From Flavobacteriaceae bacterium (GTDB taxonomy: Bacteria; Bacteroidota; Bacteroidia; Flavobacteriales; Flavobacteriaceae), in assembly GCA_013214065.1 (NCBI GenBank), contig JABSPK010000007.1, positions 1-64,000 of the forward strand: a stretch of 64,000 nt of DNA, written 5' to 3'. Positions within the stretch are counted from its first letter, which is position 1. Every line of letters begins with the position of its first letter. The notes under the pieces were generated by a model, which searched no databases, was not told the DNA's origin, and worked only from the letters and a program-made list of their open reading frames with translations. Shown here piece by piece: positions 20,251 to 54,352 of this stretch. Position numbers and translations under genes: made by a program.

Positions 20251-21372
20251 ATGGAATTAAGCTATTGGGAACATAAAGCATGGTTTTCGAACGTTGATTT
20301 CACTGTTATAGGCAGTGGTATCGTTGGCTTGAATTGTGCGATTGCCTTGAAGGATCGGTACCCTAAGGCCAAAGTCTTGGTCTTGGAGCGTGGTTCGCTA
20401 CCCCAAGGGGCCAGCACCAAAAATGCGGGTTTTGCGTGTTTTGGGAGTTTATCCGAAATCGTTGCCGATTTGAAATACCATAGCGAACAAGAAGTGTACG
20501 ATTTGGTCGAACAACGCTGGCAGGGTATCCGTTCACTGCGTTCCTTATTGGGCGATGAAGCGCTTTCTTATCAAAACCTGGGGGGGCATGAACTGTTTTT
20601 AAAGAAGGATACCGCCTTGTTCGAATCGTGTAGTGACCAATTGGATCGGGTCAATGGGCTTTTGGAACCTATTTTCGGCCAAGGCCCTTTTAATAAGCAG
20701 CCGAACCGCTTTTCGTTCGAAGGCGTGTTAGACCATTACATTTCGCATCACTATGAAGGCCAAATCGACACCGGTCAAATGATGCAACAGCTGCTGCTTA
20801 TGGCTCAACGCAAGGGCATATTGCTCCTCAATCGAATCGAGGTGACCGCTTTTGAGGATTTAGGTGCTAAGGTAGCGGTACAAACCGAAGGTTTTGATTT
20901 TGAGACCGGCACCTTGTGCGTGGCCACTAATGGATTCGCCCAACGGTTATTGAATGAAACCGTTGATCCGGCCAGGGCCCAGGTCTTGATCACCGAACCT
21001 ATTGCGAACCTCCATATCAAGGGTACTTTCCATTTCGATGAGGGGTATTATTATTTTAGGAACATTGATGACCGTATCCTGTTCGGAGGGGGTCGCAATC
21101 TCGATTTCGAAGGCGAAACTACCGATCATTTTGGCCAGACCGAAGCCATCCAAGCCCAGCTCGAACGGTTGTTGAGAGACATCATCCTTCCGAATAACAA
21201 GATAGCCATCGATCAAAGATGGAGTGGGATCATGGGTGTGGGAACACAAAAAAAACCCATCATCAAAGCCCTTTCGAACAGGGTGTTCTGCGGGGTCAGG
21301 TTAGGAGGTATGGGCGTCGCCATCGGCAGCCATGTCGGGCAGCAGTTGGCCCAATTGGCCAACAAGGCTTAG
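20251..21372 (+). CDS. FAD-dependent oxidoreductase (DAO family)
   Basis: A 373-aa flavoprotein from the ATG at 20251; the TTG at 20245 lies inside the accC terminator and is unlikely. It has a Rossmann FAD motif VIGSGIVGLNCAIAL, the acidic end of strand 2 (VLERG), the substrate-domain STKNAGFACFGSL and a C-terminal RWSGIMGVGTQKKPII. This is the glycine oxidase/D-amino-acid dehydrogenase superfamily; the substrate is unknown. Its stop overlaps the stop of the convergent ABC ATPase gene by 4 bp. No separate promoter is visible, so it may depend on readthrough from accC. Confidence 0.85.
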   Translation: MELSYWEHKAWFSNVDFTVIGSGIVGLNCAIALKDRYPKAKVLVLERGSLPQGASTKNAGFACFGSLSEIVADLKYHSEQEVYDLVEQRWQGIRSLRSLLGDEALSYQNLGGHELFLKKDTALFESCSDQLDRVNGLLEPIFGQGPFNKQPNRFSFEGVLDHYISHHYEGQIDTGQMMQQLLLMAQRKGILLLNRIEVTAFEDLGAKVAVQTEGFDFETGTLCVATNGFAQRLLNETVDPARAQVLITEPIANLHIKGTFHFDEGYYYFRNIDDRILFGGGRNLDFEGETTDHFGQTEAIQAQLERLLRDIILPNNKIAIDQRWSGIMGVGTQKKPIIKALSNRVFCGVRLGGMGVAIGSHVGQQLAQLANKA

Positions 21373-22031
21373 ACCATACGACCATCCAACAAATTGATTG
21401 TTCGCGAACCGAAAGCGGCGTTCTTTTCCGAATGGGTCACTTGAATGATGGTCACCCCTTCTTGGTTCAATTGTTTGAATAATTCCATGATTTCTTCCCC
21501 TTGTTTGGAATTCAGGTTTCCCGTGGGCTCGTCGGCCAGAAGAAGTTTGGGTTTTGAGATAAGGGCCCGGGCGACACCCACCAATTGTTGTTGACCACCG
21601 CTCAACTGGGCCGGAAATAGGTCTTTCTTGCCGACGATATTGAATCGATCCAACATATCGGCGACCATGGCCTTGCGCTCTGAACCTTTATATTTTTTAT
21701 ACAATAAGGGCATTTCAAGGTTTTCTTGCACAGTTAGGTCATCAAGCAGGTGATACGCCTGGAAAACGAAACCGATGTACTCTTTATAGAGGTTCGAACG
21801 GTGCTTTTCTTTTAAGGTGTGTACCGATTCATCAAGGAAGTTATACTCCCCTTCGTCGAATTGGTCCAACATTCCGATCACGTTGAGCAAAGTCGATTTT
21901 CCCGAACCTGAAGGGCCCATCACCGAGATAAACTCCCCTTCGTCGACGGAAAAGTTGATGTCTTTCAATAAAAAGATACGTTGGCCACCGGAGTTGACCC
22001 ATTTGAAGATGTTATTTAGTTCTAATAGCAT
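21369..22031 (-). CDS. ABC transporter ATPase 2 of the permease array (LolD/MacB type)
   Basis: A 220-aa ATPase at the distal end of the array. Walker A is MGPSGSGKSTLLN and Walker B is LLLADEPTGN. Two departures stand out: the signature reads LSGGQQQLV rather than LSGGQQQRV, and the D-loop reads GNLNSK instead of GNLDSK. The H-loop His (QVTHSE) is present. It follows permease 10 by 46 nt and should power some or all of permeases 7-10. Compare the canonical ATPase 1 at 46478. Confidence 0.9.
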   Translation of the reverse strand: MLLELNNIFKWVNSGGQRIFLLKDINFSVDEGEFISVMGPSGSGKSTLLNVIGMLDQFDEGEYNFLDESVHTLKEKHRSNLYKEYIGFVFQAYHLLDDLTVQENLEMPLLYKKYKGSERKAMVADMLDRFNIVGKKDLFPAQLSGGQQQLVGVARALISKPKLLLADEPTGNLNSKQGEEIMELFKQLNQEGVTIIQVTHSEKNAAFGSRTINLLDGRMV

Positions 22032-22077
22032 GGTCTAAACTTATTTATTCTTTTCGTAATTCGGGCGAAAAACCCGT

Positions 22078-24453
22078 TTATTCATTATGCAGGATTTCGG
22101 CCGGGTTCGTTCTAGCAGCCCGTATCGCTTGGCTGCTAACGGTCAAGATGGCAATGGCCAAGGCTATGGTTCCGGAAAGAACGAAATACCAGACGTTCAG
22201 TGGAATATGGAAGGCGAATTGCGACAACCAGTCTTTGGCCAGAAGATACGCTACGGGTAAGGCGATGCACATGGCGATCAAAACGAGTTTCACGAATTCG
22301 CTCGATAACATCAGGGTGACCTGTTGTGCGGTTTGGCCCAATACCTTGCGAATACCGATTTCCTTTTGTCGTCGTTCGGCCGAAAAGGTGGCCAGACCGA
22401 AAAGACCCAGACAAGAAATCAAAATGGCCATGATGGCGAAATACTTCGATAGGGTCGATACCCGTTGTTCAGAGCGATATAAAGCTTCGTACTGGCTATC
22501 CAAGAAGCGGAAATCGAATTCGAGACCGGGGTTGAACTCCGCATAAAGTTTTGTCAAGGCAGTGATGGTGGCTTGTTCTTGACCGGCTTTGATCTTCACG
22601 ACCAAATTACTCACCCATTCGGTGCGACACAATAGGGCCATAGGGGCGATGTCGTTATAGAGCGATTGGATGTTGAAGTCTTTCACTACACCAATGATTT
22701 CACGGTTAGGACCCCGCATGTCGATCACGGTACCAATCGGGTTCTCGAGCCCCATGACCTTAACGGCGGTTTCGTTAAGAATGATCTTGTTTTCATTATC
22801 GGGACGCTCATTGATATAGCTCCGCCCTTCTTTGAGTTCGATACCCATGGTTTCGATGAATTCAGGGCCCACATGCGCATGCCGGAAGGTGATGTCCTTC
22901 GAAGCTTCGGATTGACCGGGCCAGGTATGCCCGCTGGAGGCGTTGCTGAAATTGGTCATTCCCCCTTGCATATAAGTAGCATTGACGACACCTGGTAGTT
23001 CTTTGGCCTCGGTCAAGAAAGCATCCATATTGTTGATCAAGGCATCTTGCCGTTCGAAAACAATGACATTATCGGTATCGTAGCCCAGGTTTTTGGATTG
23101 GATGTAATCCAACTGGTTGTAAATCACACTGACCGCAACGATCAAGAGGATCGAGACGCTAAATTGAAAAACGACCAGTCCCTTGCGTACCATCAACTCG
23201 GTAAAAGAACTACTGGTGGTACCCTTGATGATCTTAACAGGGTCGAATTTGGTCAGGTACAAGGCCGGGTAACTTCCAGAGAACAGTCCGGTGACCAAGG
23301 TGATCAGAATGAGCACCGTCAAGGCCGACCCCTCAATCCCAAATTCGAGCTCCTTACCGGTGACTGAATTGAACCAAGGCAATAACAGGGTGGCCAAGAG
23401 TATGGCGACCCCCAAGGAAAAGAATGCGAGCAAGATGGATTCGGATAGGAATTGAACGATCAAGGTCCTTCGTTTGGCCCCAATGGCTTTTTTGACCCCT
23501 ACTTCTTTCAATCGTCTCGAAGCCCTTGCTGTCGAAAGGTTCATAAAGTTGATGCATGCAATACAAAGAACGAATAGGGCCACGATGGAAAAGAGGATGA
23601 CATAGTTGATACGCCCCCCGGCTTGTTGGCCATTGACGAACCTACTGTAAAGATAATTGTCGCTGAACTTGGTAAAGAGCACTTCGTCTTTCACATATTC
23701 ACTGCGCTCAGCGATAAAGCTTTTCATTTTTTCATTGAACTGATCGATATCCGTTTGAGGGCGCAGCAAGGCGTAGACACTCGAACTATTGCTGTACCAT
23801 GCGATATCATTGGGGTCACGGTATTTTAAAAAGGTCCTAAAGGGCAAAATGAAATCGAAGCGCTCCGAAGAATGCTTCGGTACTTCAAAGACTCCGGAAA
23901 CCGTGAAAACTTCATCGATACCTTCTTCACCTTCCTTAATCGACAGGCTTTTTCCGACCACTTCGACCCCGGCACCGAAGAAGTTCTCTGCCAAGGCTTT
24001 TGAGATCAACACCGAGTTCACATCAGTTAGTACCGTATTTGCATCGCCGGTTAAGAGCGGATAGGAAAACACCTTGAAGAAATCGTCGCTGGCCATGATG
24101 CCGGAAGCGCTTAGTTTCTTGTCATCGGATTCCAATCGCGCATTGTTGTCAAATTCATAAATCGCTGTGGCCAGCTCCACTTCGGGTACTTCCTCTTGCA
24201 AGGCGGTCAACATCAGACTCGAATTGGCGGAGGAGGTAAACACACCTTGTGAACCGACGGGAAAGGTGCGGCGTACCTGATACAAACGTTCATCGTTCTC
24301 ATGGAATTTATCAGTGGCCATTTCATCGGATACCCATAAGAAAACCAACAGTACACAGACCAGACCGGATGAAAGTCCGACCAAGTTGATCGTAAACGTA
24401 CTTTTGTGCCTTTTGATGTTCCGGATAAAGAACAGGAGATTGTGTTTCAACAT
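22078..24453 (-). CDS. FtsX/MacB-type ABC permease 10
   Basis: A 791-aa double-length permease: N-terminal helix (about 20-42), MacB-like periplasmic core (43-285), three-helix FtsX domain with NFMNLSTARASRRLKEVGVK, a second periplasmic core (about 445-665) and a second FtsX domain with QKEIGIRKVLG, ending NPAEILHNE. Proteins of this build do not carry substrate through the membrane in the known MacB mechanism; they pump periplasmic substrate into a TolC duct or extract lipoproteins. It is the last permease before ATPase 2. The CACTTAAAACACAGCAC leader lacks the array's common start-site element. Confidence 0.9.
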   Translation of the reverse strand: MLKHNLLFFIRNIKRHKSTFTINLVGLSSGLVCVLLVFLWVSDEMATDKFHENDERLYQVRRTFPVGSQGVFTSSANSSLMLTALQEEVPEVELATAIYEFDNNARLESDDKKLSASGIMASDDFFKVFSYPLLTGDANTVLTDVNSVLISKALAENFFGAGVEVVGKSLSIKEGEEGIDEVFTVSGVFEVPKHSSERFDFILPFRTFLKYRDPNDIAWYSNSSSVYALLRPQTDIDQFNEKMKSFIAERSEYVKDEVLFTKFSDNYLYSRFVNGQQAGGRINYVILFSIVALFVLCIACINFMNLSTARASRRLKEVGVKKAIGAKRRTLIVQFLSESILLAFFSLGVAILLATLLLPWFNSVTGKELEFGIEGSALTVLILITLVTGLFSGSYPALYLTKFDPVKIIKGTTSSSFTELMVRKGLVVFQFSVSILLIVAVSVIYNQLDYIQSKNLGYDTDNVIVFERQDALINNMDAFLTEAKELPGVVNATYMQGGMTNFSNASSGHTWPGQSEASKDITFRHAHVGPEFIETMGIELKEGRSYINERPDNENKIILNETAVKVMGLENPIGTVIDMRGPNREIIGVVKDFNIQSLYNDIAPMALLCRTEWVSNLVVKIKAGQEQATITALTKLYAEFNPGLEFDFRFLDSQYEALYRSEQRVSTLSKYFAIMAILISCLGLFGLATFSAERRQKEIGIRKVLGQTAQQVTLMLSSEFVKLVLIAMCIALPVAYLLAKDWLSQFAFHIPLNVWYFVLSGTIALAIAILTVSSQAIRAARTNPAEILHNE

Positions 24454-24492
24454 GTGCTGTGTTTTAAGTGATGGCTCAAAAAGTGGATGATA

Positions 24493-26907
24493 TCATTCAT
24501 TTCGCAAAGCGTCTAAGGGATTGGACACCGCAGCTTTGATCGTTCGGGTGCTAATGGTCAATAGGGCAATGATCAAGGCGAACAAGCCGGCCAAGGCAAA
24601 GAAAGACCAGTCCAAATCAATGCGATAGGTATATTGTTGCAGCCAACTTTGGGCAAACCACCAGGCCGCAGGGGATGCGATCAAGAAGGCCAGAAAGACC
24701 AATCGCAAAAAGTCCTTGGTCAAAATATAGGTGATCGAACCGACACTGGCGCCGATGACCTTGCGAATACCGATTTCCTTGGTACGTTCGTTGACGATAA
24801 GCAATGACATGGCGAACAAACCGATACAGCTCAACACGATCGCAATGATCGACCCACTTGTGATCAAAGAAGCGATGTTCCTTTCTTTTCGGAAGGTGCG
24901 ATCGACATTTTCATCGAGGAACGACCCCAGGAAAAGCGCGTTGGGTTCGATCTTTTTATACGCCGCTTCAACAGATTCGACCCCCCGCATCAAAAGGTTG
25001 GGGGCCACACGAACGTAGGCGTATTGAAGGGCTTCTTCTCGATCCAAGAAGAGGGTCAATGGCTCAATGCTTTTGGAGAGATTTTGGAAGTTATAGTCTT
25101 TCAATACCCCGATAACCTGGTAATTCAAGCTGTCGGTCACCGGAATAAACGCCGTCAACGGTTGGTCTTCACCCATTTCTTGGGCCATGCGCTCATTGAT
25201 CAAAACGGCATGCTTATCATTCTCACGGGTCATATCGAAATCCCTTCCCTCGACCAATTCCAACCCTAGGGTCTTTACATAGTCGTAATCGACGGTAAGG
25301 GTATTGGTCTTGATGCCTTTTCCTTTATAGCCAAAGCCCCAAACACTGGTATAGCGGCTTCCGTCCTTACCCCTACCCAGATTGTTGTCAGCCGCCGTGA
25401 TATCGACTATCTCGGGCCTACCCCGTAATTCTTCGCGCAACAATTTGACCGCATCATAGCTGTTTCTTTTGCCTTCCAGTGGAAAGGAAAGGACCTGGGC
25501 CTTGTCGAAGCCAAGATCTTTGTTGCGCATAAAATCGACCTGCCCCCAAAGGATGAGGGTTCCACTGATCAATAGTATGGCGATACTGAATTGCAATACG
25601 ATCAAGGCATCGCGCACCCGGTTTTTACCGGTTAACTCCAGCTTGCCTTTCAAAGACTGTATGGTACCCAATCGACTCAATAAAGTGGCCGGGTAGCCCC
25701 CAACGATCAAGGTTATCAACAATACGACCCCCAAGGTGGCCAAAATGATCTTGGCCGAAAGCAATACTTCAAAAGTAGCGGAGGTACGGAACAGGGTCTG
25801 GAATTCATCCAGGGCAAGACCACTTAAGGCCAAGCCAAGCGCCAATGCCATTCCGAAAACGAATAAGCTTTCCCCCCAAAACTGGAAGAAGAGTTGTTTT
25901 TTGTCGGCCCCCAAGGTTTTTCGCATCCCGATTTCACGCAGCCTATGGGCGCTTTTGGCGAGACTCATATTGATGAAATTGACCGAGGCGATGAACAAGA
26001 TGACGAAGGCGATCCCTAAAATCAGGTAGACATTCGAACGACTGGTTTCGGCACGCCCCTGGGCATAGGTAGTAAAGGCGATGTCTTTGATAGGGAGCAA
26101 TCCCAATTGCAGGTAATTTCCGAATTCATTTGGGTTGGCTCCGTCACGCTTTAGCCCTTCAATGGAGTTGCTGTAATGCAGGTTGGTAAACGCATGGCTG
26201 TTGCGTTCGACTTGGTCGGCGGCAACACCGACTTGCAATTGCACATAGACTTCATGGTATTGCGCCCCCCATCGTTCTTTGGTCGCTTCATACGAAGGGT
26301 TTTTTTCAAAAGGCAACACCATTTGAAAATCCATGGTACTTTGATCAGGGCAGTCGATAATTACATCGCGCACCGTAAACGGTACGTCGGCCCCATTGAT
26401 TTGGACGTTGACGGTCTTGCCAATCGCCTCTTCTTCACCGAACAGCGCTTGGGCGCCTTCTTCGGTCAAGACCACCGAAGAAATATCACGTAGCGTTTTC
26501 GCATCCTTGCCTTTGGTACTCGGAAAACTGAACATCTCAAGAAAGGAGGCGTCGGTCCAAAGGATATCCATATTGAGTTCCTTGTCTTGGTAATTGGCGA
26601 CCACATCGTCTTCCAAAACCCTTGCTGTTCGAGCTATTCCAGGCACCTCATCTTGAAGGGCCTGTGCAAAAGGCGTGGGTTGGCTGGTGCCTACTTCAGT
26701 GCCGTTGGGAATCTGCCAAGTGATGTAGGCAAGGAACAGCGAATCGCCATTCTCATGAAACCCATCGGTAGCCAGATCGTGTACCGAATTCATGGTCAAT
26801 AGGGTCGCGACACCAAAAGCGACCGAAAGCCCGATAAGGTTTATCGCGGTAAAAACCCGATTTTTCCAAAGGTTGCGAAGGGCGATTTTCATATAGTTCT
26901 TGAACAT
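24493..26907 (-). CDS. FtsX/MacB-type ABC permease 9
   Basis: 804 aa with the same two-core, eight-helix layout as its neighbours, but among the more divergent copies. The first FtsX motif reads NFINMSLAKSAHRLREIGMRKTLGA, and the first periplasmic core (residues 45-270) shares little with the other copies, carrying its own VQINGADVPFTVRDV strand region. It ends NPLDALRNE. The ATG follows AAAAAAACGAAAGCAC. The gap to permease 8 is 20 nt, so it is co-transcribed. Confidence 0.9.
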   Translation of the reverse strand: MFKNYMKIALRNLWKNRVFTAINLIGLSVAFGVATLLTMNSVHDLATDGFHENGDSLFLAYITWQIPNGTEVGTSQPTPFAQALQDEVPGIARTARVLEDDVVANYQDKELNMDILWTDASFLEMFSFPSTKGKDAKTLRDISSVVLTEEGAQALFGEEEAIGKTVNVQINGADVPFTVRDVIIDCPDQSTMDFQMVLPFEKNPSYEATKERWGAQYHEVYVQLQVGVAADQVERNSHAFTNLHYSNSIEGLKRDGANPNEFGNYLQLGLLPIKDIAFTTYAQGRAETSRSNVYLILGIAFVILFIASVNFINMSLAKSAHRLREIGMRKTLGADKKQLFFQFWGESLFVFGMALALGLALSGLALDEFQTLFRTSATFEVLLSAKIILATLGVVLLITLIVGGYPATLLSRLGTIQSLKGKLELTGKNRVRDALIVLQFSIAILLISGTLILWGQVDFMRNKDLGFDKAQVLSFPLEGKRNSYDAVKLLREELRGRPEIVDITAADNNLGRGKDGSRYTSVWGFGYKGKGIKTNTLTVDYDYVKTLGLELVEGRDFDMTRENDKHAVLINERMAQEMGEDQPLTAFIPVTDSLNYQVIGVLKDYNFQNLSKSIEPLTLFLDREEALQYAYVRVAPNLLMRGVESVEAAYKKIEPNALFLGSFLDENVDRTFRKERNIASLITSGSIIAIVLSCIGLFAMSLLIVNERTKEIGIRKVIGASVGSITYILTKDFLRLVFLAFLIASPAAWWFAQSWLQQYTYRIDLDWSFFALAGLFALIIALLTISTRTIKAAVSNPLDALRNE

Positions 26908-26927
26908 GTGCTTTCGTTTTTTTGTGC

Positions 26928-29288: not shown

Positions 29289-29309
29289 GGTCTTTCGTTT
29301 TTTGTTGGA

Positions 29310-31694: not shown

Positions 31695-31730
31695 GACTGC
31701 TCGTTTTTTGAGTGATACTTAAGGACTATA

Positions 31731-31742
31731 AATTATTGTGCC
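31731..31742 (-). promoter_or_regulatory. Sigma-54-like -24 box, possible second-unit promoter
   Basis: On the minus strand TTTTGGCAC (-24 region, GG at 31742-31741) is followed at the right distance by TTTAT, which lacks the -12 GC. An overlapping vegetative-type pair also exists: TTG-N19-TAGTTGTG (about 31772-31743, one mismatch). Two palindromes lie 55-92 bp upstream of the -24 box. Confidence 0.4.
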
Positions 31743-31796
31743 AAAACACAACTAAATGAAAATGAGCTGATTACAAACACCAGGCATTTAAAAAGC

Positions 31797-31833
31797 GTAA
31801 AATAATTTGACACATTCCGTCTAAATAATTTAC
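31797..31833. promoter_or_regulatory. Pair of 15-bp palindromes upstream of permease 7
   Basis: GTAAAATAATTTGAC (31797-31811) and GTCTAAATAATTTAC (31819-31833). Both are 15-mers of GT-N11-AC form, start to start 22 bp. They match in length, form and spacing the pair upstream of tolC (49887-49923), so they are probable binding sites for the adjacent NtrC-type activator. Confidence 0.55.
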
Positions 31834-31852
31834 ACCTTATGAAGTGGTGGTA

Positions 31853-34237: not shown

Positions 34238-34258
34238 GATAGTCTGTAATTGCGTTGT

Positions 34259-36697: not shown

Positions 36698-36727
36698 GAT
36701 GATGGATTTTTGATTGATGCTATTTCA

Positions 36728-39160: not shown

Positions 39161-39184
39161 GATACTTCGTTTTTTGATGCTGAT

Positions 39185-41575: not shown

Positions 41576-41599
41576 GTTCAGTCATTTTTTGTTGATGAT

Positions 41600-43990
41600 T
41601 CATTCCGTTCTCAGGCTTGTGACGGGGCTGACCCGTGCCGCCCTGAACGCTTTATAGGCAATGGTGGCCATGGTGATACTGACCATTCCGCCTATGGCCA
41701 GCACGAATATCCACCATGACATTTCGGTCTTGAAAGTGTAGTTCTCGAGCCAACGTCCCATAACCATATAGGCCAATGGTGTGGCGATAGCACCTGCTAA
41801 AAGGATCATGACAACGAAGTCCTTGGCCAATAGCGATAATATCTGGGGCAGGTTGCTTCCGAGCACCTTTCGGATTCCGATTTCTTTGGTCTTTTGGGTA
41901 ATGAAGTAGGTGATCAACCCATACACCCCAAGGCAACCGATCAAAATTGCGAGGATCGAGAACACTTTGGTCAAAGTCAAAAAGCGCTGTTCGGCTTGGT
42001 ATTGTTCGGCGACCCGTTGGTCTAGAAAGTCGTAATCGAACACGAATTCAGGAAAGAGGTTCGACCATTCATTCTCAATCCGTTCGATGGTCTCGGTCAT
42101 TTGCGCCGTATGCAATTTGATGGCGAATTCCGAGTAATATTCGGTGATTGGAGCTACAAAGATCGGGTTGATGTTCTCTTGGAACGACCGATCATGGAAA
42201 TCGGATAAGACCCCGACAACAGTGCCCTGTACCCTGCCCGAGTTGATGGCGATGCGCTTGCCCAACAAGTCATTGACATCGTCGACCCCCACTTTTTTAG
42301 CGAAAGTCGCATTGACCAACACCTCGAAAACAGAGTCTTTTTCGAAATAGTTCCTTCCGGCCAACAGCGGAATTTGAAAGGTGTTCAAATAATCATCGTC
42401 GGCAGCTTTTACCTGAACACTGAATTCTTCGTTATTCGGGTTATTGTTGTACCGCACACTGGTACCCCATTGCAAGTAAGCTGCTCCAGGTGAAGCCAAA
42501 CATCGGGTGACCGAGCTGACCCCTTGGAATTTTGTAAGTCGTTCTTTCAAACCATCCAACTGAATGGGTGAAACGTCATCGGTCGGGATCGAAAGCATCA
42601 TTACCGCTTCCTTGTTATAGCCTAGGTCTGAACTGATGGCATAGTTCAGTTGTTTGTTGACGACCAAGGTGCCCACGATCAGCATGATCGCAATGGCGAA
42701 TTGGGCGATAACCAAAATCCTACGGGTACGAGATCCACCGATATCGCGGGCCGAGAGTTGGTTTTTCAATGCCAAAATAGGGGTGACCCGTGCCATTAAA
42801 ATCCCTGGGTAGCTTCCGGCCAAGAAGGTAACCACTGCCAGAAGCAAGAATACGAAGCCTATGAACTTCGGCTGAAGTAGGCCACTCAATGAAAGGGTCA
42901 GGTCGAACATGGCGTTGAAACGCGGTAAGGCCAAAACGCTTAGCCCAATGCCAACGGCCAGAGCCAAGAGGCTTGTCAAAAAGGTTTCGACCATAAATTG
43001 CCAAAAGAGTTGGCCCTTGACACCACCGACTACCTTGCGCATTCCGACCTCTTTGGATCGATATACCGATTGACCTGTTGAAATATTGATGAAGTTGATG
43101 CAGGCCATCCCTAAAATAAACAGTCCGATCAGTGCGAAAATCAACAAAGTCGTACGAGAGATCCCACCGCCGTATTTGGTATTCAGGTGGATGTCGGACA
43201 AGGCCTGTAACCTGTACGTGTGTTTGTTCGTAGAAGTCGGCCTGAACTTTTCCGGGTAGCCTGAAATATCACTTTCGATGGTGCTGATATCCTGATTGGG
43301 ACGCAAAAGCCCGTAACAGGTCAAATTGGTTGTGATTCCACCCCAAGACTCACTTCCACTGAAAGAAGAAAAAGAGGTTAAGGTGGGAAAGGAAATAAAG
43401 ATTTTGCTCGTGAATTCGGTATTCTTGGGAAACTTTCGGAGCACCCCGGTGACCGTTATCGTTTCTTTGTTTCCGAAGCGGAACGTTTGTCCCACCGGAT
43501 CAAGCTCGCCAAAAAGACGTTGGGCGATATCTTCAGTGATGACGGCTGTATTCGGTTCGTTCAAAGGCACTTCGTTTGAACCGTTGAGCATCGGAAAATG
43601 GAAGATCTTGAAAAAATCGGCCTCAACGAAACGGACCTCGTCATCGACGTTCATTTTCAAATTGCGGCTATCCAATTGTAAGACTTCGTCGCCCCAATAG
43701 ACCATTTTGGCCATTTTCTCGGCATAGGTATAGTCTTTTTTAAAGGCATTGGCGAAACCGGGGGGCACCGAGGCAGAATATTCGATGCCGTCTTGGTTTT
43801 CTTCAGTTACGAATCGGTAGATCCGCTCCCCGTTGGTATGAAAAGTGTCAAAACCCAAATGATGGTTTACAAAGAGAAAGATGATCAAAGCACATCCGAA
43901 TCCGATGGCCAGCCCTAGGATGTTGATGAGTGAGAATACTTTTCTCTTGAAGAGGTTCCTCCACGCTATTTTCAATTGATTTTTGAACAT
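41600..43990 (-). CDS. FtsX/MacB-type ABC permease 2
   Basis: 796 aa and the sister of permease 3. The periplasmic cores carry private segments, e.g. KMVYWGDEVLQLDSRNLKMN and FPTLTSFSSFSGSESWGGI. It ends SPVTSLRTE, the only copy with Ser instead of Asn before this Pro. The leader CAAAAAACGAAAAGCC is close to that of permease 8, and the gap to permease 1 is 38 nt. Confidence 0.9.
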   Translation of the reverse strand: MFKNQLKIAWRNLFKRKVFSLINILGLAIGFGCALIIFLFVNHHLGFDTFHTNGERIYRFVTEENQDGIEYSASVPPGFANAFKKDYTYAEKMAKMVYWGDEVLQLDSRNLKMNVDDEVRFVEADFFKIFHFPMLNGSNEVPLNEPNTAVITEDIAQRLFGELDPVGQTFRFGNKETITVTGVLRKFPKNTEFTSKIFISFPTLTSFSSFSGSESWGGITTNLTCYGLLRPNQDISTIESDISGYPEKFRPTSTNKHTYRLQALSDIHLNTKYGGGISRTTLLIFALIGLFILGMACINFINISTGQSVYRSKEVGMRKVVGGVKGQLFWQFMVETFLTSLLALAVGIGLSVLALPRFNAMFDLTLSLSGLLQPKFIGFVFLLLAVVTFLAGSYPGILMARVTPILALKNQLSARDIGGSRTRRILVIAQFAIAIMLIVGTLVVNKQLNYAISSDLGYNKEAVMMLSIPTDDVSPIQLDGLKERLTKFQGVSSVTRCLASPGAAYLQWGTSVRYNNNPNNEEFSVQVKAADDDYLNTFQIPLLAGRNYFEKDSVFEVLVNATFAKKVGVDDVNDLLGKRIAINSGRVQGTVVGVLSDFHDRSFQENINPIFVAPITEYYSEFAIKLHTAQMTETIERIENEWSNLFPEFVFDYDFLDQRVAEQYQAEQRFLTLTKVFSILAILIGCLGVYGLITYFITQKTKEIGIRKVLGSNLPQILSLLAKDFVVMILLAGAIATPLAYMVMGRWLENYTFKTEMSWWIFVLAIGGMVSITMATIAYKAFRAARVSPVTSLRTE

Positions 43991-44028
43991 GGCTTTTCGT
44001 TTTTTGAGGCCCGATGGTCGGGCATGGG

Positions 44029-46428
44029 TTATTCCGTCCGTAGACTTTTCACCGGGTTTTGCTTGGCGGCCCTAATGGCTTGGAAACTTACCGTAAGCAC
44101 GGTGATGCCCATGGCGCCCAACATGGCCAATCCGAAGATCCACCATTTGAGGATCACGCGATAGGGATATTCTTGCAACCATCCGTTCATGACGTAGTAG
44201 GCAATAGGAACCGCGATGAAACAGGAAATAATGACCAGTTTCAAAAAGTCTTTTGATAGCATGTTCCAAACGTTGAATACCGTGGCACCCAGTACTTTTC
44301 GTACCCCGATTTCCTTGGTACGTTGCTCGGCAACGAAGGAGGTGAGTCCGAACAGTCCCAAACAACTGATCAAAATGGCAAGGGCGGTGAAGATTCCGGC
44401 TAGGCTGCCTACACGTTCTTCAGCGGCGAATTTCTCACCGTACTCCTCATCCACGAATTGATATTCAAATGGGATATCGGGAAAGTGCTCCTTGAATACG
44501 CGTTCGATAACCGCAATGTTCGCGCTGGCGCTCTTGTTCGGGTTCAGCCGTAGGTTGTAATAGCTGAAATTATCGAAACGATCGTATACGTACATGCCTT
44601 GTTTGACAGGTTCGTACGGGGATTGCGCGATCATATCCTCGACCACACCGATAATCTTCAAGGGCGGATCGGGATCTTCCTCATCGTCATCCTTGATATA
44701 CATTCCGACCGGATTCTCAAGGCCTAGATAGCGTTTTGCCGTTTCATTGATGAGCACCCCAAGGGAGTCGGAAGCGAATTCACGAGAGAAATCGCGTCCT
44801 TCAACGATCTTTAGGTTCAAGGTGCTGGCATATTCAGGGGAAACCTCGGTCCAGGCCAAATCTTCTTGAAAACCTTCAGGTTTGCCCTCCCAGGTAAATC
44901 CTCCTCGATTCGACCAGATGCGTGTGGTCGGGCTACTGGAGGTCGCCATCGCGACCACGGCCCCTGAACTGATGAACTCATTTCGCATCAAATCGGTTTT
45001 TCCCGTAAAATCCTGGCTAAAGGTGGGCACTTGGATCAATCCTTCCTTATCGTAACCGATCGGTCGGTTCTTGGCATGGTTGATCTGTTGCATGACGATA
45101 AAGGTTCCGATGATGAAAGCTACGGAAACCGTGAACTGGAGTACGACCAAGATCTTTCGGGGTAAACCGGAATATTTTCCCCCTTTGAAGGTGCCTTTCA
45201 AGACATCGACCGGTTTGAAAGATGAAAGGTAAAGGGCAGGGTAGCTTCCGGCCAATAAAGCCGTGAAAAGGATGAAGACCAATGAAGTGGCCCAAAACAC
45301 GAATTGGCCCCAAGGAAAGCTGATTTCCTTTCGCGATAAATCGTTGAACCCGCTCAAAGAAAGCAATACGATCACACAGGCGACGACAAAGGCAAAGGCG
45401 ACGACCAAAAAGGATTCGCTCAAGAATTGATAAATCAATTGCCCTTTCAACGAGCCGATAGACTTGCGGATGCCCACCTCCTTGGCGCGCTTTTCAGACC
45501 GTGCCGTGCTTAAGTTCATGAAATTGATACAGGCCAATAGGAGTACGAAGACCCCGATAATACCGAACAGCCAAACGTATTTGATACGGCCGCCGACCTG
45601 TTTACCATTTTCAAAATTACCCCGCAAGTACCATTCCTCCATCGGGAATAAGAAAATCTGCGGATTGAATTCCGCCGTACTTTCATTCAGGTCTTTTTTC
45701 ACATTGCGGATCTTTTCCGAAACTTCGGCCATATCGACCTTATCGGCCAATTGGACGAAGAATTGGAACGAGTTGTTGCCCCAATTGTCCTCGGCTTCCC
45801 GCACCCATTCACGGGTCGAAACGTATTGGTCCCACGGAATGATGTATTCGGTATCGCTGAACGAGTTGTTATACGGGATGTCTTGATATACCGCCGTCAC
45901 GTTAAGGTCGTATTCATTGCTGACCTTGACCGTTTTGCCAATGGGGTCCAAGGCCCCGAACAAGGCTTCAGCGGTCGAGGCGGAAAGCATGATCGAATTG
46001 ATATCGCGAAGGCCGTCTTTCTCTCCTTTCAAGATTTCAAGATCGAGAAAATCGGGTCCTTGGCGTTGCATATAGTTTCCGGTGCGCGACAGGTTGGTTT
46101 CGCCGTATTTAAGATACAGGCTGCTGGTCCAAGATGACATCAGCATGTATTCAAAGTTGTCGCCGTAGCGTTCGCGCATAGCCATTTCCAAGGGGCGAGG
46201 TATGGCCGGCCCGGTTCCTGTCTGCCCATTGAACGTCTGTGATTGGTAGACTTGGGCGATTTTGCCTTTTTCTTTGAAATAGCTGTTGTGGGTCAACTCA
46301 TCGTTCATCCAAAGACCGATGATCAAAGTGACTGCCATTCCAAGGGCCAACCCTCCGATATTGATCAAGGAATACCCTTTGTTTTTCAAGAGGTTCCTCC
46401 AGGCGATTTTCAGATAGTTTTTGAACAT
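44029..46428 (-). CDS. FtsX/MacB-type ABC permease 1 (proximal to ATPase 1)
   Basis: 799 aa. First permease after ATPase 1 (49-nt gap) and so the likely founding partner of the MFP and TolC proteins. The N-terminus MFKNYLKIAWRNLLKNKGY and the motif NLSTARSEKRAKEVGIRKSIGS resemble permease 8. The second core includes an acidic insertion KDDDEEDPDPPLK near residue 580, not seen in the others. It ends NPVKSLRTE. The promoter is presumably that of tolC, 3.3 kb upstream. Confidence 0.9.
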   Translation of the reverse strand: MFKNYLKIAWRNLLKNKGYSLINIGGLALGMAVTLIIGLWMNDELTHNSYFKEKGKIAQVYQSQTFNGQTGTGPAIPRPLEMAMRERYGDNFEYMLMSSWTSSLYLKYGETNLSRTGNYMQRQGPDFLDLEILKGEKDGLRDINSIMLSASTAEALFGALDPIGKTVKVSNEYDLNVTAVYQDIPYNNSFSDTEYIIPWDQYVSTREWVREAEDNWGNNSFQFFVQLADKVDMAEVSEKIRNVKKDLNESTAEFNPQIFLFPMEEWYLRGNFENGKQVGGRIKYVWLFGIIGVFVLLLACINFMNLSTARSEKRAKEVGIRKSIGSLKGQLIYQFLSESFLVVAFAFVVACVIVLLSLSGFNDLSRKEISFPWGQFVFWATSLVFILFTALLAGSYPALYLSSFKPVDVLKGTFKGGKYSGLPRKILVVLQFTVSVAFIIGTFIVMQQINHAKNRPIGYDKEGLIQVPTFSQDFTGKTDLMRNEFISSGAVVAMATSSSPTTRIWSNRGGFTWEGKPEGFQEDLAWTEVSPEYASTLNLKIVEGRDFSREFASDSLGVLINETAKRYLGLENPVGMYIKDDDEEDPDPPLKIIGVVEDMIAQSPYEPVKQGMYVYDRFDNFSYYNLRLNPNKSASANIAVIERVFKEHFPDIPFEYQFVDEEYGEKFAAEERVGSLAGIFTALAILISCLGLFGLTSFVAEQRTKEIGVRKVLGATVFNVWNMLSKDFLKLVIISCFIAVPIAYYVMNGWLQEYPYRVILKWWIFGLAMLGAMGITVLTVSFQAIRAAKQNPVKSLRTE

Positions 46429-46477
46429 GGCTTTCTTTTTTGATTGATTATTGGATGTGATTGATGAATAAACTCGT

Positions 46478-47173
46478 TTAAATGACGGCTCCTACGGCCC
46501 TATTCTGGCTTTCGGTCACGATCTGGCCGTCGAATAGGTTGATGACCCGGTGTGCGTAATGCGAGTCACGATCGGAGTGCGTTACCATGACGATGGTGGT
46601 GCCCTCTTGGTTCAATTCGGTCAATAGGTTCATTACCTCGATACCGTTTTTCGAATCCAAGTTACCTGTCGGCTCATCCGCCAAAATGAGTTTCGGGTTG
46701 GTTACTACGGCCCTAGATATTGCTACACGTTGTTGTTGCCCCCCGGAGAGTTGTTGTGGGAAATGCTTTTCGCGATGGGCGATCTTCATGCGTTCAAGAA
46801 CGGCCTTGACTTTTTCACGGCGTTCCGATTTGCTCATTTTCAAATAGATCAACGGGAGTTCCACATTTTCATAGACGGTAAGCTCGTCAATGAGGTTGAA
46901 GCTCTGGAAAACAAAGCCCAGATTCCCTTTACGAAGCTGGGTGCGCTGGCTTTCCTTTAAACCGGCCACTTCATGGCCTGCAAAATTATAGCTGCCCTCA
47001 GAAGGGTTGTCGAGCATACCGATGATGTTCAACAGGGTGGATTTGCCGCAGCCAGAAGGCCCCATGACCGCAACAAATTCCCCTTCCTCAACTTTGAGGT
47101 TCACCCCGTTCAAAGCCAGGGTCTCTACTTCTTCGGTTCTAAAACTTTTCTTTAATTCTTGGATCTGTATCAT
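46478..47173 (-). CDS. ABC transporter ATPase 1 (LolD/MacB type)
   Basis: A 231-aa nucleotide-binding protein with canonical motifs: Walker A GPSGCGKSTLLN, Q-loop VFQSFNLIDELTVYENVELPL, signature LSGGQQQRVAISRA, Walker B LILADEPTGNLDSKNG and H-loop MVTHSD. The VYENVELPLIY segment is typical of MacB/LolD-like subunits that contact FtsX-type permeases. The start is 12 nt after the MFP gene stop. It precedes ten permeases and may serve several of them. Confidence 0.93.
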   Translation of the reverse strand: MIQIQELKKSFRTEEVETLALNGVNLKVEEGEFVAVMGPSGCGKSTLLNIIGMLDNPSEGSYNFAGHEVAGLKESQRTQLRKGNLGFVFQSFNLIDELTVYENVELPLIYLKMSKSERREKVKAVLERMKIAHREKHFPQQLSGGQQQRVAISRAVVTNPKLILADEPTGNLDSKNGIEVMNLLTELNQEGTTIVMVTHSDRDSHYAHRVINLFDGQIVTESQNRAVGAVI

Positions 47174-47185
47174 GTTCTTGATGGA

Positions 47186-48436
47186 TTACTTTAATACGAT
47201 TCGTTCGGCTTCACCGAAACTGTCATAATTACTGGTTATTACTTGTTCGCCGGGTTCCAGACCTTCTAGAACCTCGTAATATCTTGAATTTTGCTTGCCG
47301 ACCCTGATGTTGCGTTTCAGGGCTTCGTTGCCATCGGGTGAGAGCACGAAGACCCATTGTCCGCCGGTGCTATTGAAAAACCCACCTTTCGGTAACAGTA
47401 GGGCATCGTTCGACGCTCCCAGCTGCAATCGGATGTTATAGCTTTGGCCGGCGCGGATGGTCTCCGGTTTTTCGTCGGTAAAGACAAGATCGACATTGAA
47501 TCGACCGTTTCGCACCTCTGGATAGACCTTGCGCAATCGTAGCGCGTATTCTTTTCCATTTCGTTCAAGGCTGGCCGAAAGATCGCGTTTCACCCGATCG
47601 ATATAATGTTCGTCGATGGCGGCCTCGATCTTGAAATCGGTCAAGACGTTGACCTGACCGATACGTTGGCCCTGGGTGATATTCTGTCCGATTTCGGCAT
47701 CGAGAAAGCCCAACTGTCCATCTGCGGGAGCCCTGACGTTCAAATGGTCTAAACGTTCGTAGACCATCGACAGTGTTTTTTTCATCCGATCGAGATCGGT
47801 ATCGAGACCCGCCAAAGAGGTGCTGCGTAAGGCATCGTCTTGTTCGGTCTGGAGTTTGACGATCTCATACTGTTTTTGCGCGAGTTCATAATTCTCTTTG
47901 GAAGTCAGGTACACTTCGCGAGAGACCAGCTCATCTTCGTATAGGGCGGTGTTCTGTTCGAAATTCCTTTTAAGGCGTTGCAGATCGGTGCTTGCGGTAG
48001 CCAATGATCGTCGCCCTTCGACCTGTCGTGCATCGAAAGTCAAACGGGTCGAACGCAGATCATTTTGTTTTAAGGCCAGATTACTTTCACTGGCCAAGAT
48101 CTGCTCATAGAGGTTCATATTCTCTAACCTGAGGATGATGTCGCCTTTTTTGACCATCGCCCCTTCTTCAATGAGCTTTTCGGATACCCGACCACCTTCA
48201 TAGGCATCCATGTAGATGGTGGCGATTGGGGCCACGTTGCCATTGATCGTGATGTAATCGTCGAACTTGCCATTGCTCACCTGGGAAATCGAAAGCCGTT
48301 CTTTTTCGGTTCGAAATGTCGAGGCGGAGCTGCCCGTGGCCAGTTTGTAGCCAACGAACAGTACTAAGACGCCAAGGGCGATGTAGCCGTAGTGTTTCGG
48401 ACGAAGTCCTTTTTTCCTTTCGAGTTGTATATCCAT
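47186..48436 (-). CDS. Membrane-fusion (HlyD/MacA-type) periplasmic adaptor
   Basis: A 416-aa inner-membrane-anchored adaptor: one N-terminal helix (residues 17-34), lipoyl half-domains (INGNVAPIATIYMDAYEGG and NVRAPADGQLGFLDAEIGQ), a long alpha-hairpin (about 105-235), then a beta-barrel and membrane-proximal domain. It bridges MacB-type permeases to the TolC channel. It begins 1 nt after the tolC gene (48438), so the two are translationally close. It is the only adaptor for ten permeases. Confidence 0.93.
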   Translation of the reverse strand: MDIQLERKKGLRPKHYGYIALGVLVLFVGYKLATGSSASTFRTEKERLSISQVSNGKFDDYITINGNVAPIATIYMDAYEGGRVSEKLIEEGAMVKKGDIILRLENMNLYEQILASESNLALKQNDLRSTRLTFDARQVEGRRSLATASTDLQRLKRNFEQNTALYEDELVSREVYLTSKENYELAQKQYEIVKLQTEQDDALRSTSLAGLDTDLDRMKKTLSMVYERLDHLNVRAPADGQLGFLDAEIGQNITQGQRIGQVNVLTDFKIEAAIDEHYIDRVKRDLSASLERNGKEYALRLRKVYPEVRNGRFNVDLVFTDEKPETIRAGQSYNIRLQLGASNDALLLPKGGFFNSTGGQWVFVLSPDGNEALKRNIRVGKQNSRYYEVLEGLEPGEQVITSNYDSFGEAERIVLK

Positions 48437-48437
48437 T

Positions 48438-49781
48438 TTAGTTGATATTAAATATTGGAAGACCCTGGTAAAAGTCTAGGGTGCTTTTGTTCACTTTTAA
48501 TCGCAATTGTGCTTGCAGGTTCTGGTTTTGTGCGGTCGCATAGAGTGTTTTCGCCTGCCCGAGTTCGATGGCATTGATCATGCCTTTCTCATAGCGTTTT
48601 TGGGCAATTGAAAAGGAAAGTCCCTGTGAGGTCACGCTCTTTTGTGTCTGTGCGGTCTCGGCTTTTAAGGCTTCGTTCTCCTGTACCAATTGTTGAATGA
48701 TCTGGTAAAGCTCCTGGGCCGTGATCTTTGCATTGTTCTTAGCGCGTTCCAAGGCGATTTTTTGTTGTTTGATCCTGGATCGGTTCGACCAAGCGCTGAA
48801 AACGGGTACGTTCAAAGTAGCCCCTATGTATTCAAAGCGGTTGTCGCGGAACTGATCTCTAAAAGGAATGGTGTTGCCCAAGGTATCCCGGATCGTTTCG
48901 AAATATCCGGTACCGACACCACCACCGAAAGAAAGGGTGGGGTAAAGCGATCCCCTGGTCACGGCCAGTTGCTTTCTTGCTGCCTTGACACGATATTCCT
49001 GTGCTTTGATCGACGGCATGAACGACTTGGCCGTACTGAAGATCGAATCGGAGACCAAGGTCTTTGTTTCCATGGTAAACGCCCCTTCTTCAATGACGGG
49101 TTGGATCGAGATATCACTTTCGTTTTCAACGTTCATGGCTTGTAACAAGGTCAATTTGGCGGCGTTCAATCGGTTTTGGTTCTGGGTCAATGCCAATTTA
49201 TCGGTCAGCAAAAGGGCCTCGGCCTCGTACAGGTCGGCACCTGCCATCACCCCGAGCTCGACTTGTTTCGAAACGAGGTCATAATTGGTTTGGGATATGG
49301 CGACCTGTTCTTCCGAAATGGTAATCAGGCCTTCGATGAATTGAATGTCGTAATAGGCCGACATCACCCGAAAGGCCAAAAGGTACTTCTGTTGAAGGCT
49401 CTCTTCTTTCGTTGCCTTGTATAAAAATTTCGAGGCTTTGATGGAGTTGATTTTTTGGAACCCTTGAAACAGGTCAAAGGAGGCGTCCAGAGAATAATTG
49501 TTCGAAAAAATATCGGTGTTGACGATACTGTTGTCTTCCGGGTTGATCTGGCGACCATAGCGGATGAAATAGTTCGCAAAACCACTTATGGTGGGTAGCA
49601 GATCGCGCACCGACTGTCGGTAGGTTTCCCTATTCGATTGGGTGTTCAGATCAAAATCGTTCAATTGAAGATTGTGTTCTACAGCATAAGAGATGCACTC
49701 ATCGAGTGTCCAGACCTTTTGTGAAAAAGCCTTGGTAAACACCATCAGGGCAAATAGAAATAAAAGCTGTTTTCGGTTCAT
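48438..49781 (-). CDS. TolC-family outer membrane efflux protein
   Basis: A 447-aa protein from the ATG at 49781 (MNRKQLLFLFALMVFTKAFSQ signal peptide); the longer frame from 49823 would overlap the sigma-54 promoter and has no signal peptide. It has two OEP repeats of coiled helices and strands (about 25-215 and 235-440). It forms the trimeric exit duct for the MFP-permease complexes. First gene of the operon, 16 nt downstream of the predicted sigma-54 start site. Confidence 0.93.
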   Translation of the reverse strand: MNRKQLLFLFALMVFTKAFSQKVWTLDECISYAVEHNLQLNDFDLNTQSNRETYRQSVRDLLPTISGFANYFIRYGRQINPEDNSIVNTDIFSNNYSLDASFDLFQGFQKINSIKASKFLYKATKEESLQQKYLLAFRVMSAYYDIQFIEGLITISEEQVAISQTNYDLVSKQVELGVMAGADLYEAEALLLTDKLALTQNQNRLNAAKLTLLQAMNVENESDISIQPVIEEGAFTMETKTLVSDSIFSTAKSFMPSIKAQEYRVKAARKQLAVTRGSLYPTLSFGGGVGTGYFETIRDTLGNTIPFRDQFRDNRFEYIGATLNVPVFSAWSNRSRIKQQKIALERAKNNAKITAQELYQIIQQLVQENEALKAETAQTQKSVTSQGLSFSIAQKRYEKGMINAIELGQAKTLYATAQNQNLQAQLRLKVNKSTLDFYQGLPIFNIN

Positions 49782-49807
49782 GATTTTTCTAGTATGCCAA
49801 AAATAAA

Positions 49808-49821
49808 GCGATTCCCATGCC
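49808..49821 (-). promoter_or_regulatory. Sigma-54 promoter of the tolC-permease operon
   Basis: TTGGCATGGGAATCGCTT on the minus strand has GG (49821-49820) and GC (49809-49808) exactly 10 nt apart; TGGCA and GCT match the -24/-12 consensus (TGGCAC-N5-TTGC). The start site would be near 49797. A vegetative-like TATTTTTG (49805-49798) overlaps, with a short 15-nt spacing from TTG, so dual use cannot be excluded. Confidence 0.65.
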
Positions 49822-49886
49822 AATAATGAAAGTAATTGATAGTCAGATACTTAATATTAAATTTTTTTCGATTCCACTGCTCTTGT

Positions 49887-49923
49887 GTAAAATATTTATA
49901 CAAAATATGTCAAATATTTTGAC
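49887..49923. promoter_or_regulatory. Tandem activator sites upstream of tolC
   Basis: GTAAAATATTTATAC (49887-49901) and GTCAAATATTTTGAC (49909-49923; perfect arms TGTCAAA/TTTGACA) are 22 bp apart, two helical turns. They lie 66-103 bp upstream of the -24 box, the usual place for sigma-54 enhancer sites, and just upstream of the activator gene's own predicted promoter. Confidence 0.65.
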
Positions 49924-49932
49924 AATTGATCT

Positions 49933-53593: not shown

Positions 53594-54352
53594 CTATCCG
53601 TCTAGCCACTTTCGAAATGCCTTGGTCACCGAGGAGCTGGTGAGCACTTTGTCTTTGACCCCGTTCAATCGAAGTTCCAATCGATTTTTCGAATAGGTCA
53701 AGATATTGGTCAACTGTCGTTGATTGATGATTTGACTTCGATTGATCTTGAAAAAAAGATCGGGGTCGAGGACACCTTCCAATGACCCGATGTTGGAAGA
53801 AATAGTATGCATTTTCCCATCCAAATCATAGAGTTTGCAGAGGTCACCAAATGCCTGGATGAGGGCGATATCTTGGGTTTCGAGCAACTTGATCCCTTCA
53901 GGTTTTTTGATGGCAAAACGCCGCTTATAGGTCATACTGCCCTGGTTTAAGGCTTTTTTCAAGGCCTTGAACATAGCCGTTTCATAAGAGGGGGAATCGA
54001 ACAGGGTCAAGTACTTATGGATGGCATGTTCGAAATCATCGGCCGAAAAAGGTTTCAGGATGTAGGCGATGCCATTGGTCTTGAAGGCCTCGAGTAGGTG
54101 ATTGTCATAGGCCGTAATGAAAATAATGGGGGCCGTTATTTCACAATTTTGGAACACTTCGAAAGCCGTTCCGTCCAATAGCTGGATATCCGACAGGATT
54201 AGGTTGAATTCGATTCCTTCCGAGAGCATGACCATGGCCTGTTCCACCGTCCGTGAATTCGAAGTGGTGAAGGGTACGTCCAAGGTTTGGGCCAAAAGGG
54301 CTTCGATTTTTTTAAGGGCCGGCGGTTCGTCTTCAAGGATCAAAATATGCAT
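53594..54352 (-). CDS. LytTR-family response regulator
   Basis: 252 aa: receiver domain with acidic pocket ED(7-8), phospho-acceptor Asp55 (LILSDIQ) and Lys in LKPFS, and a C-terminal LytTR DNA-binding domain (about 150-250; FKINRSQIINQRQLTNI). It starts 6 nt after the stop of the partner kinase gene, forming an LytS/LytR-type pair. Targets are unknown; the adjacent serine hydrolase is a candidate only by position. Confidence 0.93.
   Translation of the reverse strand: MHILILEDEPPALKKIEALLAQTLDVPFTTSNSRTVEQAMVMLSEGIEFNLILSDIQLLDGTAFEVFQNCEITAPIIFITAYDNHLLEAFKTNGIAYILKPFSADDFEHAIHKYLTLFDSPSYETAMFKALKKALNQGSMTYKRRFAIKKPEGIKLLETQDIALIQAFGDLCKLYDLDGKMHTISSNIGSLEGVLDPDLFFKINRSQIINQRQLTNILTYSKNRLELRLNGVKDKVLTSSSVTKAFRKWLDG

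Follow-up and report, generated by a model that had tools for sequence, protein, structure and literature searches.

Gene content of the locus

The stretch of DNA analyzed here (the window) is 64,000 nucleotides long and comes from a Flavobacteriaceae bacterium (contig JABSPK010000007.1 of assembly GCA_013214065.1). It contains a MacB-type transporter locus in which ten consecutive permease genes are bracketed by genes for two ATPases. A first-pass annotation of this DNA had described ten tandem permeases of 786-812 amino acids (aa) on one strand together with one TolC, one adaptor and two ATPases, and this gene content was confirmed: ten intact open frames occupy positions 22078-46428 of the minus strand, and each of the four partner genes was found. 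The gaps in the permease array are about 20-50 nt, as had been stated for most of them, the sole exception being the gap that separates permease 6 from permease 7, at about 158 nt. The regulator and kinase genes are divergent from the TolC-adaptor-ATPase-permease operon. The features of the locus are listed below; the permease groups are defined in the comparison with relatives.

51344..52684 (+): histidine kinase, with two transmembrane (TM) helices, a very short loop between them, a weak PAS match and HATPase_c
49980..51344 (+): sigma-54 response regulator, with a receiver, Sigma54_activat and a Fis-type helix-turn-helix
49886..49924 (-): tandem 17-bp palindromes with 22-bp spacing, the proposed response-regulator site of the main promoter
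49809..49823 (-): sigma-54-like site TTGGCATGGGAATCG, upstream of TolC
49794..49799 (-): another TGGCAT, lying 23 bp past the first and kept in the TolC leaders of relatives
48438..49781 (-): TolC-like outer membrane efflux protein (OEP), starting with the ATG at 49781
47186..48436 (-): periplasmic adaptor (HlyD-type), whose top-scoring curated family is DarC, below cut-off
46478..47173 (-): ATPase 1, whose closest curated family is DarD, below cut-off; Walker A, Walker B, LSGGQ and H motifs intact
44029..46428 (-): permease 1, 799 aa, group A (23/25 loci)
41600..43990 (-): permease 2, 796 aa, group C
39185..41575 (-): permease 3, 796 aa, group C, sharing 71% identity with permease 2
36728..39160 (-): permease 4, 810 aa, group B
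34259..36697 (-): permease 5, 812 aa, group B (20/25 loci)
31853..34237 (-): permease 6, 794 aa, group J
31796..31834 (-): the tandem palindrome again, inside the 158-nt gap upstream of permease 7
31729..31743 (-): sigma-54-like site TGGCACAATAATTTA, upstream of permease 7
29310..31694 (-): permease 7, 794 aa, group G, heading the proposed second transcription unit
26928..29288 (-): permease 8, 786 aa, group H
24493..26907 (-): permease 9, 804 aa, group D
22078..24453 (-): permease 10, 791 aa, group E
21369..22031 (-): ATPase 2, which ends the array; DarD scores highest among curated families, below its cut-off; motifs intact

The C-terminal NP-x-x-S/A-L ending that had been attributed to all ten permeases was found in eight of them; permease 2 has SP instead, and permease 10 ends in NPAEILHNE. 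The C-terminal P, L and final E are invariant across the ten. When the whole genome (24 contigs, 3.475 Mb) was searched with a profile of the ten permeases at E <= 1e-30, ten matches were obtained and none lay outside the array. The other MacB_PCD matches in the genome are separate open frames of 413-849 aa.

A second MacB-type locus is present in this genome (L015:11063-19142, contig C19). It has two adjacent pairs of MacB-like permeases of about 410 aa, one ATPase and an adaptor-like gene.

The permeases are predicted fused MacB dimers

All ten permeases retain FtsX, in agreement with the first-pass annotation: Pfam detected the FtsX domain twice in 10/10 permeases, and MacB_PCD twice in nine and once in permease 5. 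Hydropathy analysis placed eight TM segments in every permease, and the chains follow the MacB-type plan of TM1, a periplasmic MacB core and three TM segments with an FtsX domain. AlphaFold2 was used to model permeases 1 and 7, the latter being the most divergent of the ten. The two models had a mean predicted local distance difference test score (pLDDT) of 84.3 and 82.1, respectively, and a common layout, with eight long membrane helices predicted for permease 1. Fold searches with both models gave E. coli YbbP and MacB as the top matches, and LolC/E ranked lower, as did a permease domain of Porphyromonas gingivalis (3is6). Permease 1 aligned to YbbP in VIA-align with Z 25.6 and a root-mean-square deviation (rmsd) of 9.8 over 674 aligned residues, and to its structural neighbor BceABS with Z 20.1 and an rmsd of 8.9 over 489.

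As judged from this predicted layout, each permease chain corresponds to a MacB dimer in fused form, with the ATPase as a separate protein, and one chain would therefore provide the membrane core of a whole transporter. This corrects the earlier remark that canonical MacAB-TolC needs one permease, since each of the ten fused dimers could serve a complete pump.

Constant flanks enclose a variable set of permeases

Loci of relatives were collected by scanning contigs with the adaptor, and the best 80 of 209 matching stretches (L019-L098) were examined. These 80 come mostly from Flavobacteriaceae genera, two being labeled only 'Bacteroidia' and one 'Algicola'. TolC and adaptor genes were called in all 80 loci, ATPase 1 and the regulator in 78 each and the kinase in 76, and the uncalled genes fall at contig ends, save in L046. 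Wherever the contig continues, ATPase 1 is followed by permeases, at times with an intervening gene. Identity to the window is 90-97% for ATPase 1 (78 seen) and 81-92% for the adaptor.

The contents of the array were compared in 25 assembled loci, which comprise the window and relatives, including 11 genomes that contain named loci. The array is led by TolC, adaptor and ATPase 1 in 21 of the 25, and one locus (G023) is a fragment. Permeases longer than 700 aa were counted, 153 in total; there are 10 in the window and 5, 4, 14, 8, 14, 4, 13, 4, 7, 5, 8, 27, 5, 4 (contig end), 2 (contig end), 2, 2, 1, 2, 2, 2, 3, 3 and 2 in the other loci, a range of 1-27 with the largest array in G026. Single-linkage clustering sorted the 153 permeases into 48 groups at 50% identity, a number that shifts with the cut-off (59 at 55% and 70 at 60%). 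Group A, which contains permease 1, occurs in 23 of the 25 loci, and group B, which contains permeases 4 and 5, in 20. For eight of the ten window permeases the closest relative lies in another genome, and recent tandem duplication was rejected as their source; permeases 2 and 3 are each other's nearest relative.

The presence of ATPase 2 followed array size. It was found in all 16 arrays with at least three permeases and in two of the seven with one or two (23 complete arrays, excluding G023 and G024, which are cut by contig ends; Fisher p = 0.0006, ignoring shared ancestry). For instance, Croceivirga thetidis has 5 permeases, and Pseudozobellia thermophila has 2 and lacks ATPase 2. As monitored by pattern matching in the 25 loci, the ATPase motifs are intact in 23/24 ATPase 1 and 16/17 ATPase 2 proteins. 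ATPase 2 was also considered as a degenerate copy, which was ruled out by its retention of Walker A, Walker B, LSGGQ and the H motif.

The first three permeases were compared between pairs of 66 loci with at least three complete permeases. They were the same and in the same order in 5 of 12 pairs whose adaptors are 99-100% identical, and this agreement dropped to 0.01 of 1618 pairs at an adaptor identity of 80-88%. The five agreeing pairs showed no permease difference, and in the seven differing pairs (adaptors at least 99% identical) one whole permease gene was added, missing or exchanged, with matching neighbors 91-99% identical (91-98% in L036/L037, L042/L046/L047 and L051/L056). L037 has one extra permease in front relative to L036, the first permease of L042 and L047 is missing from L046, L042 is without one permease common to L046 and L047, L056 has one permease more than L051 and L053, and L022 and L023 differ outright in their first permease. 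Exchange of halves, scored as halves differing in identity by more than 25 points with one half above 55%, was found in no pair among the 153 permeases. These comparisons of gene order indicate that the repertoire changes by gain and loss of whole permease genes.

The spacers upstream of the permeases (e.g., 46429-46477) share a ATCATCAATCAAAAAACGAA-like sequence. ATCAATCA was present in 25 of 153 upstream 45-mers versus 0.4 expected after shuffling, and it overlaps the start point of the extra permease of L037. The L036/L037 junction shows shared short spacer and gene-start sequence; A-rich leaders are usual in Bacteroidota, and the likeness may be no more than such a leader.

Mean pairwise identity among representatives of the 48 groups was 0.44 and 0.50 in the cytoplasmic coupling loops and 0.53 at the C-terminus, 0.24-0.42 in the TM segments and 0.19-0.29 in the periplasmic cores. 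The cores thus diverge, as had been claimed, and their identity lies below that of the ATPase-facing loops. This pattern fits a shared motor with varied heads.

A duplicated palindrome suggests two transcription units

The genome has one match to a sigma-54 gene, and the Sigma54_activat domain of the regulator scored 225 bits. With at most one mismatch allowed, the genome contains the tandem palindrome twice, at 49886-49924 upstream of TolC and at 31796-31834 upstream of permease 7 (reversed control, 0). Each copy is followed by a sigma-54-like site; the permease-7 site deviates from the TolC site at -12, and both are sequence matches only. The pattern TTGGCAYNNNAATMG on its own is little informative, because it occurs at five places in the genome (reversed control, 2), one of them at this locus.

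In the 80 loci, the tandem palindrome was detected in 74 of 78 regulator-TolC intergenic regions (absent from L034, L041, L045 and L057), and alternative spacings from 17 to 39 were each found in at most four of the 78. TGGCAY lies 101-103 bp past the box start in 73 of the 74 TolC leaders (102 in 69). Over the 25 loci, the box lies upstream of 8 of 154 permeases, namely, permease 7 of the window and seven permeases in relatives, with TGGCAY or TGGTAC 91-92 bp past the box start (101 in one). Among 15 long or box-bearing gaps before permeases, eight contain the tandem box, one (G035, permease-7 type) has TGGCAY only and six have neither; long gaps therefore do not all represent promoters of this kind. 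The two copies of box and site suggest that the window array probably consists of two co-regulated units, one from TolC to permease 6 and the other from permease 7 to ATPase 2, each with a predicted promoter.

A second TGGCAY was seen 124-126 bp past the box start, or about 23 bp beyond the sigma-54-like site, in 69 of the 74 TolC leaders, at the would-be transcript start. The gene at 53594-54352, beyond the kinase, has a LytTR-type response regulator as its best NCBIfam match, with a score below the cut-off, and seems to belong to a separate regulatory unit.

Occurrence across the phylum

A search of 148 Bacteroidota genomes with ATPase 1 at E <= 1e-95 found relatives in 35, and the loci of 19 of these were fetched. 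At least two whole or cut permease genes lie near the ATPase in 17 of the 19 loci, and a kinase lies within the stretch in 17. TolC is at the far end of the locus in G073, G143 and G135.

Comparison with named systems

The locus shares with MacAB-TolC the MacB periplasmic core, the FtsX domains, an HlyD-type adaptor and an OEP outer membrane protein; the adaptor and TolC genes are present and adjacent. It differs from MacAB-TolC in its dimer-fused permeases, its separate ATPase, its ten permeases and two ATPases and its sigma-54 regulator. The darobactin exporter DarBCD (NCBIfam NF038008, NF038010 and NF038007) has an equal set of parts and gave the top curated match for the adaptor and both ATPases, with DarB second for the permeases after TIGR03434. 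The window locus differs in having many permeases and in scoring well under the curated Dar cut-offs (permeases, 80-185 versus 700 bits; adaptor, 195 versus 450; ATPases, 301 and 245 versus 375); the adaptor exceeds the broad TIGR01730 RND_mfp cut-off. ADOP (TIGR03434) is the best curated match for all ten permeases, near full length, at 241-334 bits against a cut-off of 622. The 'orphan' in ADOP refers to the lack of an ATPase, whereas the window permeases are accompanied by ATPases and an adaptor. We do not assign the system to the ADOP or Dar families; it would act like a MacB-type transporter with a separate ATPase and adaptor.

BceABS/BceRS resembles the locus in having a kinase without a sensor domain beside a transporter, where transporter-based sensing is possible. 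BceB is without the first periplasmic domain, and the window permeases have two domains. The BceABS regulator is not known to be of the sigma-54 type, and the system is not known to have an adaptor or TolC. YbbAP-TesA has two MacB permease units per chain and a separate ATPase, and YbbP is the top fold match of the window permeases. In the available part of PMC5985334, YbbP and BceB are described with two linking TM helices between the MacB units; YbbP also has a periplasmic esterase partner, whereas the window locus has an adaptor and TolC. Rather than the ten TM segments of the YbbP plan, eight were predicted in 10/10 window permeases, which seem to be without linking helices of the YbbP/BceB type.

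Within Bacteroidota, the P. gingivalis operon PG0682-PG0685 resembles the locus in combining an ATPase with three FtsX-like/ABC permeases, one of them described as FtsX-like; neither a variable array nor a sigma-54 circuit is described in the available sections of that report (PMC12040651). The first-pass annotation knew of multi-permease FtsX clusters in Bacteroidota and of no described function for so large a set under a sigma-54 two-component system. It did not include the fused-dimer architecture, the second proposed promoter within the array, the variability of the slot across the phylum or the published proposal of sigma-54 control for this class of permease. For COG0577 permeases, such control has been predicted in three classes, Bacteroidia among them, by a 2025 analysis whose accessible text calls this first evidence (PMC12316311). 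A variable permease array between two ATPases was not found in a literature search of titles and abstract starts that left subscription journals mostly uncovered, and the novelty of the array is therefore unproven. The available portion of a review of tripartite systems (PMC8277102) does not mention Bacteroidetes.

A proposed shared chassis with interchangeable heads

We propose, with a probability of about 0.5, that the locus encodes one MacB-type exporter chassis with interchangeable permease heads under one regulatory circuit. Two ATPase subunits would be all that a fused permease needs to form a complete mechanotransmission machine. Any permease that is produced would be driven by ATPase 1 or, in loci that have it, ATPase 2, with the duct supplied by the common adaptor and TolC. 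Specificity would be set by the divergent periplasmic domains, so that the array would represent a repertoire of heads for different envelope-located molecules. The sensorless kinase and the sigma-54 regulator would switch on the two transcription units, and the repertoire would evolve through gain and loss of whole permeases inside a conserved bracket. The permease slot looks like a swappable repertoire of export heads, with 1 to 27 per genome.

The earlier interpretation is partly supported. Its suggestion that different heads share a duct and motors is the reading with the best support, namely, the constancy of the adaptor and ATPase 1, the turnover of the permeases, the conserved ATPase-facing loops and the finding of no other such permease in the genome. 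Within the locus, ten permeases face one adaptor and one TolC, which also supports sharing. Further points in favor of the proposal are the single-permease differences between loci with near-identical adaptors, the ATPase 2 trend, the restriction of the tandem palindrome to this locus and the fold matches of permeases 1 and 7. Gene content, fused-dimer architecture, constant flanks around a variable filling, gain and loss of whole genes and the duplicated site are seen in the sequence itself; physical sharing of the adaptor and the ATPases, export activity, variety of substrates and promoter function are inferred.

Several observations weigh against this proposal. Weak adaptor matches (contigs C9 and C12) and a weak TolC match (C9) occur elsewhere in the genome, so that partners from outside the locus are possible. 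According to the available parts of two reports, the fused type VII permeases YbbP and BceB work without an adaptor or TolC (PMC5985334, PMC12646458), and low identity of periplasmic domains is common throughout the superfamily (PMC5985334, in part). Since divergent periplasmic domains are usual in the superfamily, the contrast between loops and cores is weak evidence for sharing. Among the relatives, no kinase was called in L046, and G005, G024 and G025 have adaptors of only 31-40% identity and no leading TolC. Across the phylum, TolC heads the operon in 1/19 loci (G174). In G148, three permeases precede an opposing gene and ATPase 2 is absent, contrary to the ATPase 2 trend; G089 has regulators, an adaptor and an ATPase and no permease in its stretch; G059 and G079 have another gene order and are cut at or near contig ends; and G125, which was not resolved, is a further misfit. 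The possibility that most copies are inactive, which the first-pass annotation had named as damaging to its reading, was not borne out at the sequence level: all ten frames are intact, and their nonsynonymous divergence (dN) from the nearest relative is 0.12-0.37. Saturation of synonymous divergence (dS) in all but one pair makes the dN argument a weak one.

Alternative explanations

The kinase raises the alternative that the permeases, all or some of them, act as a sensor array as in BceABS. Hydropathy analysis of the first 60 of the 76 kinases called in the family loci showed two TM segments with a loop of 2-13 residues in 60/60, the window kinase also has two, and 16 of the 17 kinases from across the phylum carry two closely spaced TM segments at the N-terminus. 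The kinase thus is without a periplasmic sensor domain and has the two-TM layout of the BceS type. In the available text of PMC7828314, BceS-type kinases are described as lacking an extracellular sensing domain and as requiring BceAB for sensing, and given this likeness transporter-based sensing has to be taken seriously, either in place of export or in addition to it. By analogy, the permeases would sense different antimicrobial peptides or envelope lipids for the sensorless kinase, and signals passing through this one intramembrane kinase would raise expression of the whole locus. The restriction of the regulator's proposed sites to its own locus and the presence of BceABS among the structural neighbors of permease 1 agree with this idea. 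BceB, however, differs from the window permeases in having one periplasmic domain instead of two and ten TM segments instead of the predicted eight; the conserved adaptor and TolC suggest a duct; and the weak PAS match means that the kinase may sense in the cytoplasm. We consider a sensor array possible on present evidence, if not likely.

Sensing and export could also be combined, which we regard as doubtful. Here the permeases would be fast-turning recognition heads: the sensorless kinase would read envelope attack through many permeases, and the same permeases would expel the agent via the shared adaptor and TolC. Each permease would be fitted to another toxin, antimicrobial peptide or lipid, with whole heads added and dropped between strains, like immunity genes.

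Another explanation, which appears unlikely, is that the permeases lift lipids or lipid-anchored molecules from the inner membrane and pass them to periplasmic enzymes or carriers rather than through TolC. Such lifting and handing over to a periplasmic partner has been proposed for YbbAP and TesA, and partner proteins are a recurrent theme of the superfamily, according to the available part of PMC12646458; YbbP was also the top structural match of the permease 1 and 7 models. Arrays of other genomes contain embedded genes whose products have signal-like N-termini (judged by eye), and these keep an explanation of the YbbAP-TesA type alive. Genes for DUF2807 (GIN domain) proteins are embedded at eight places, five of them between ATPase 1 and the first permeases:

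L099:16350-17114, L101:3234-4046, L104:3300-4085, L107:19106-19867: DUF2807 genes
L106:8631-9383, L118:11570-12307, L035:12131-12892, L134:16481-17218: DUF2807 genes
L122:3688-4779, L122:15916-16779, L120:4039-4878, L142:9573-10511, L144:5081-5953: genes for secreted-looking hydrolases or an FGE-sulfatase-domain protein

Further embedded proteins include DUF2911, an alpha/beta hydrolase, an esterase, an S41 peptidase, a polysaccharide deacetylase and an FGE-sulfatase domain. Against this explanation, the embedded proteins are diverse and frequently absent, no embedded signal-bearing partner gene is present in the window array, and an adaptor gene occurs in 80/80 family loci (found by the adaptor) and in 18/19 phylum-wide loci (found by the ATPase).

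Redundant expansion by tandem duplication and drift, with near-equivalent permeases of which one or two are needed, could be argued from the relatives that manage with one or two permeases and from the duplicate-like pairs 2/3 (71%) and 4/5 (56%), and is improbable given that eight of the ten permeases have their nearest counterpart in another genome and not among their neighbors, that all ten frames are intact and that the flanks stay constant while the filling turns over.

Implications

We return to the proposal of a shared chassis. The system is conserved and fast-varying, a variant MacB-type exporter whose single chassis probably serves many fused heads. If this is true, it would provide a context for many Bacteroidota genes annotated as 'ABC transporter permease'. 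If the heads are interchangeable, about 50 natural permease groups (48 at 50% identity) would be available in a near-constant background, at 1 to 27 per genome, and the locus would be useful for mapping the determinants of substrate choice in MacB-type permeases.

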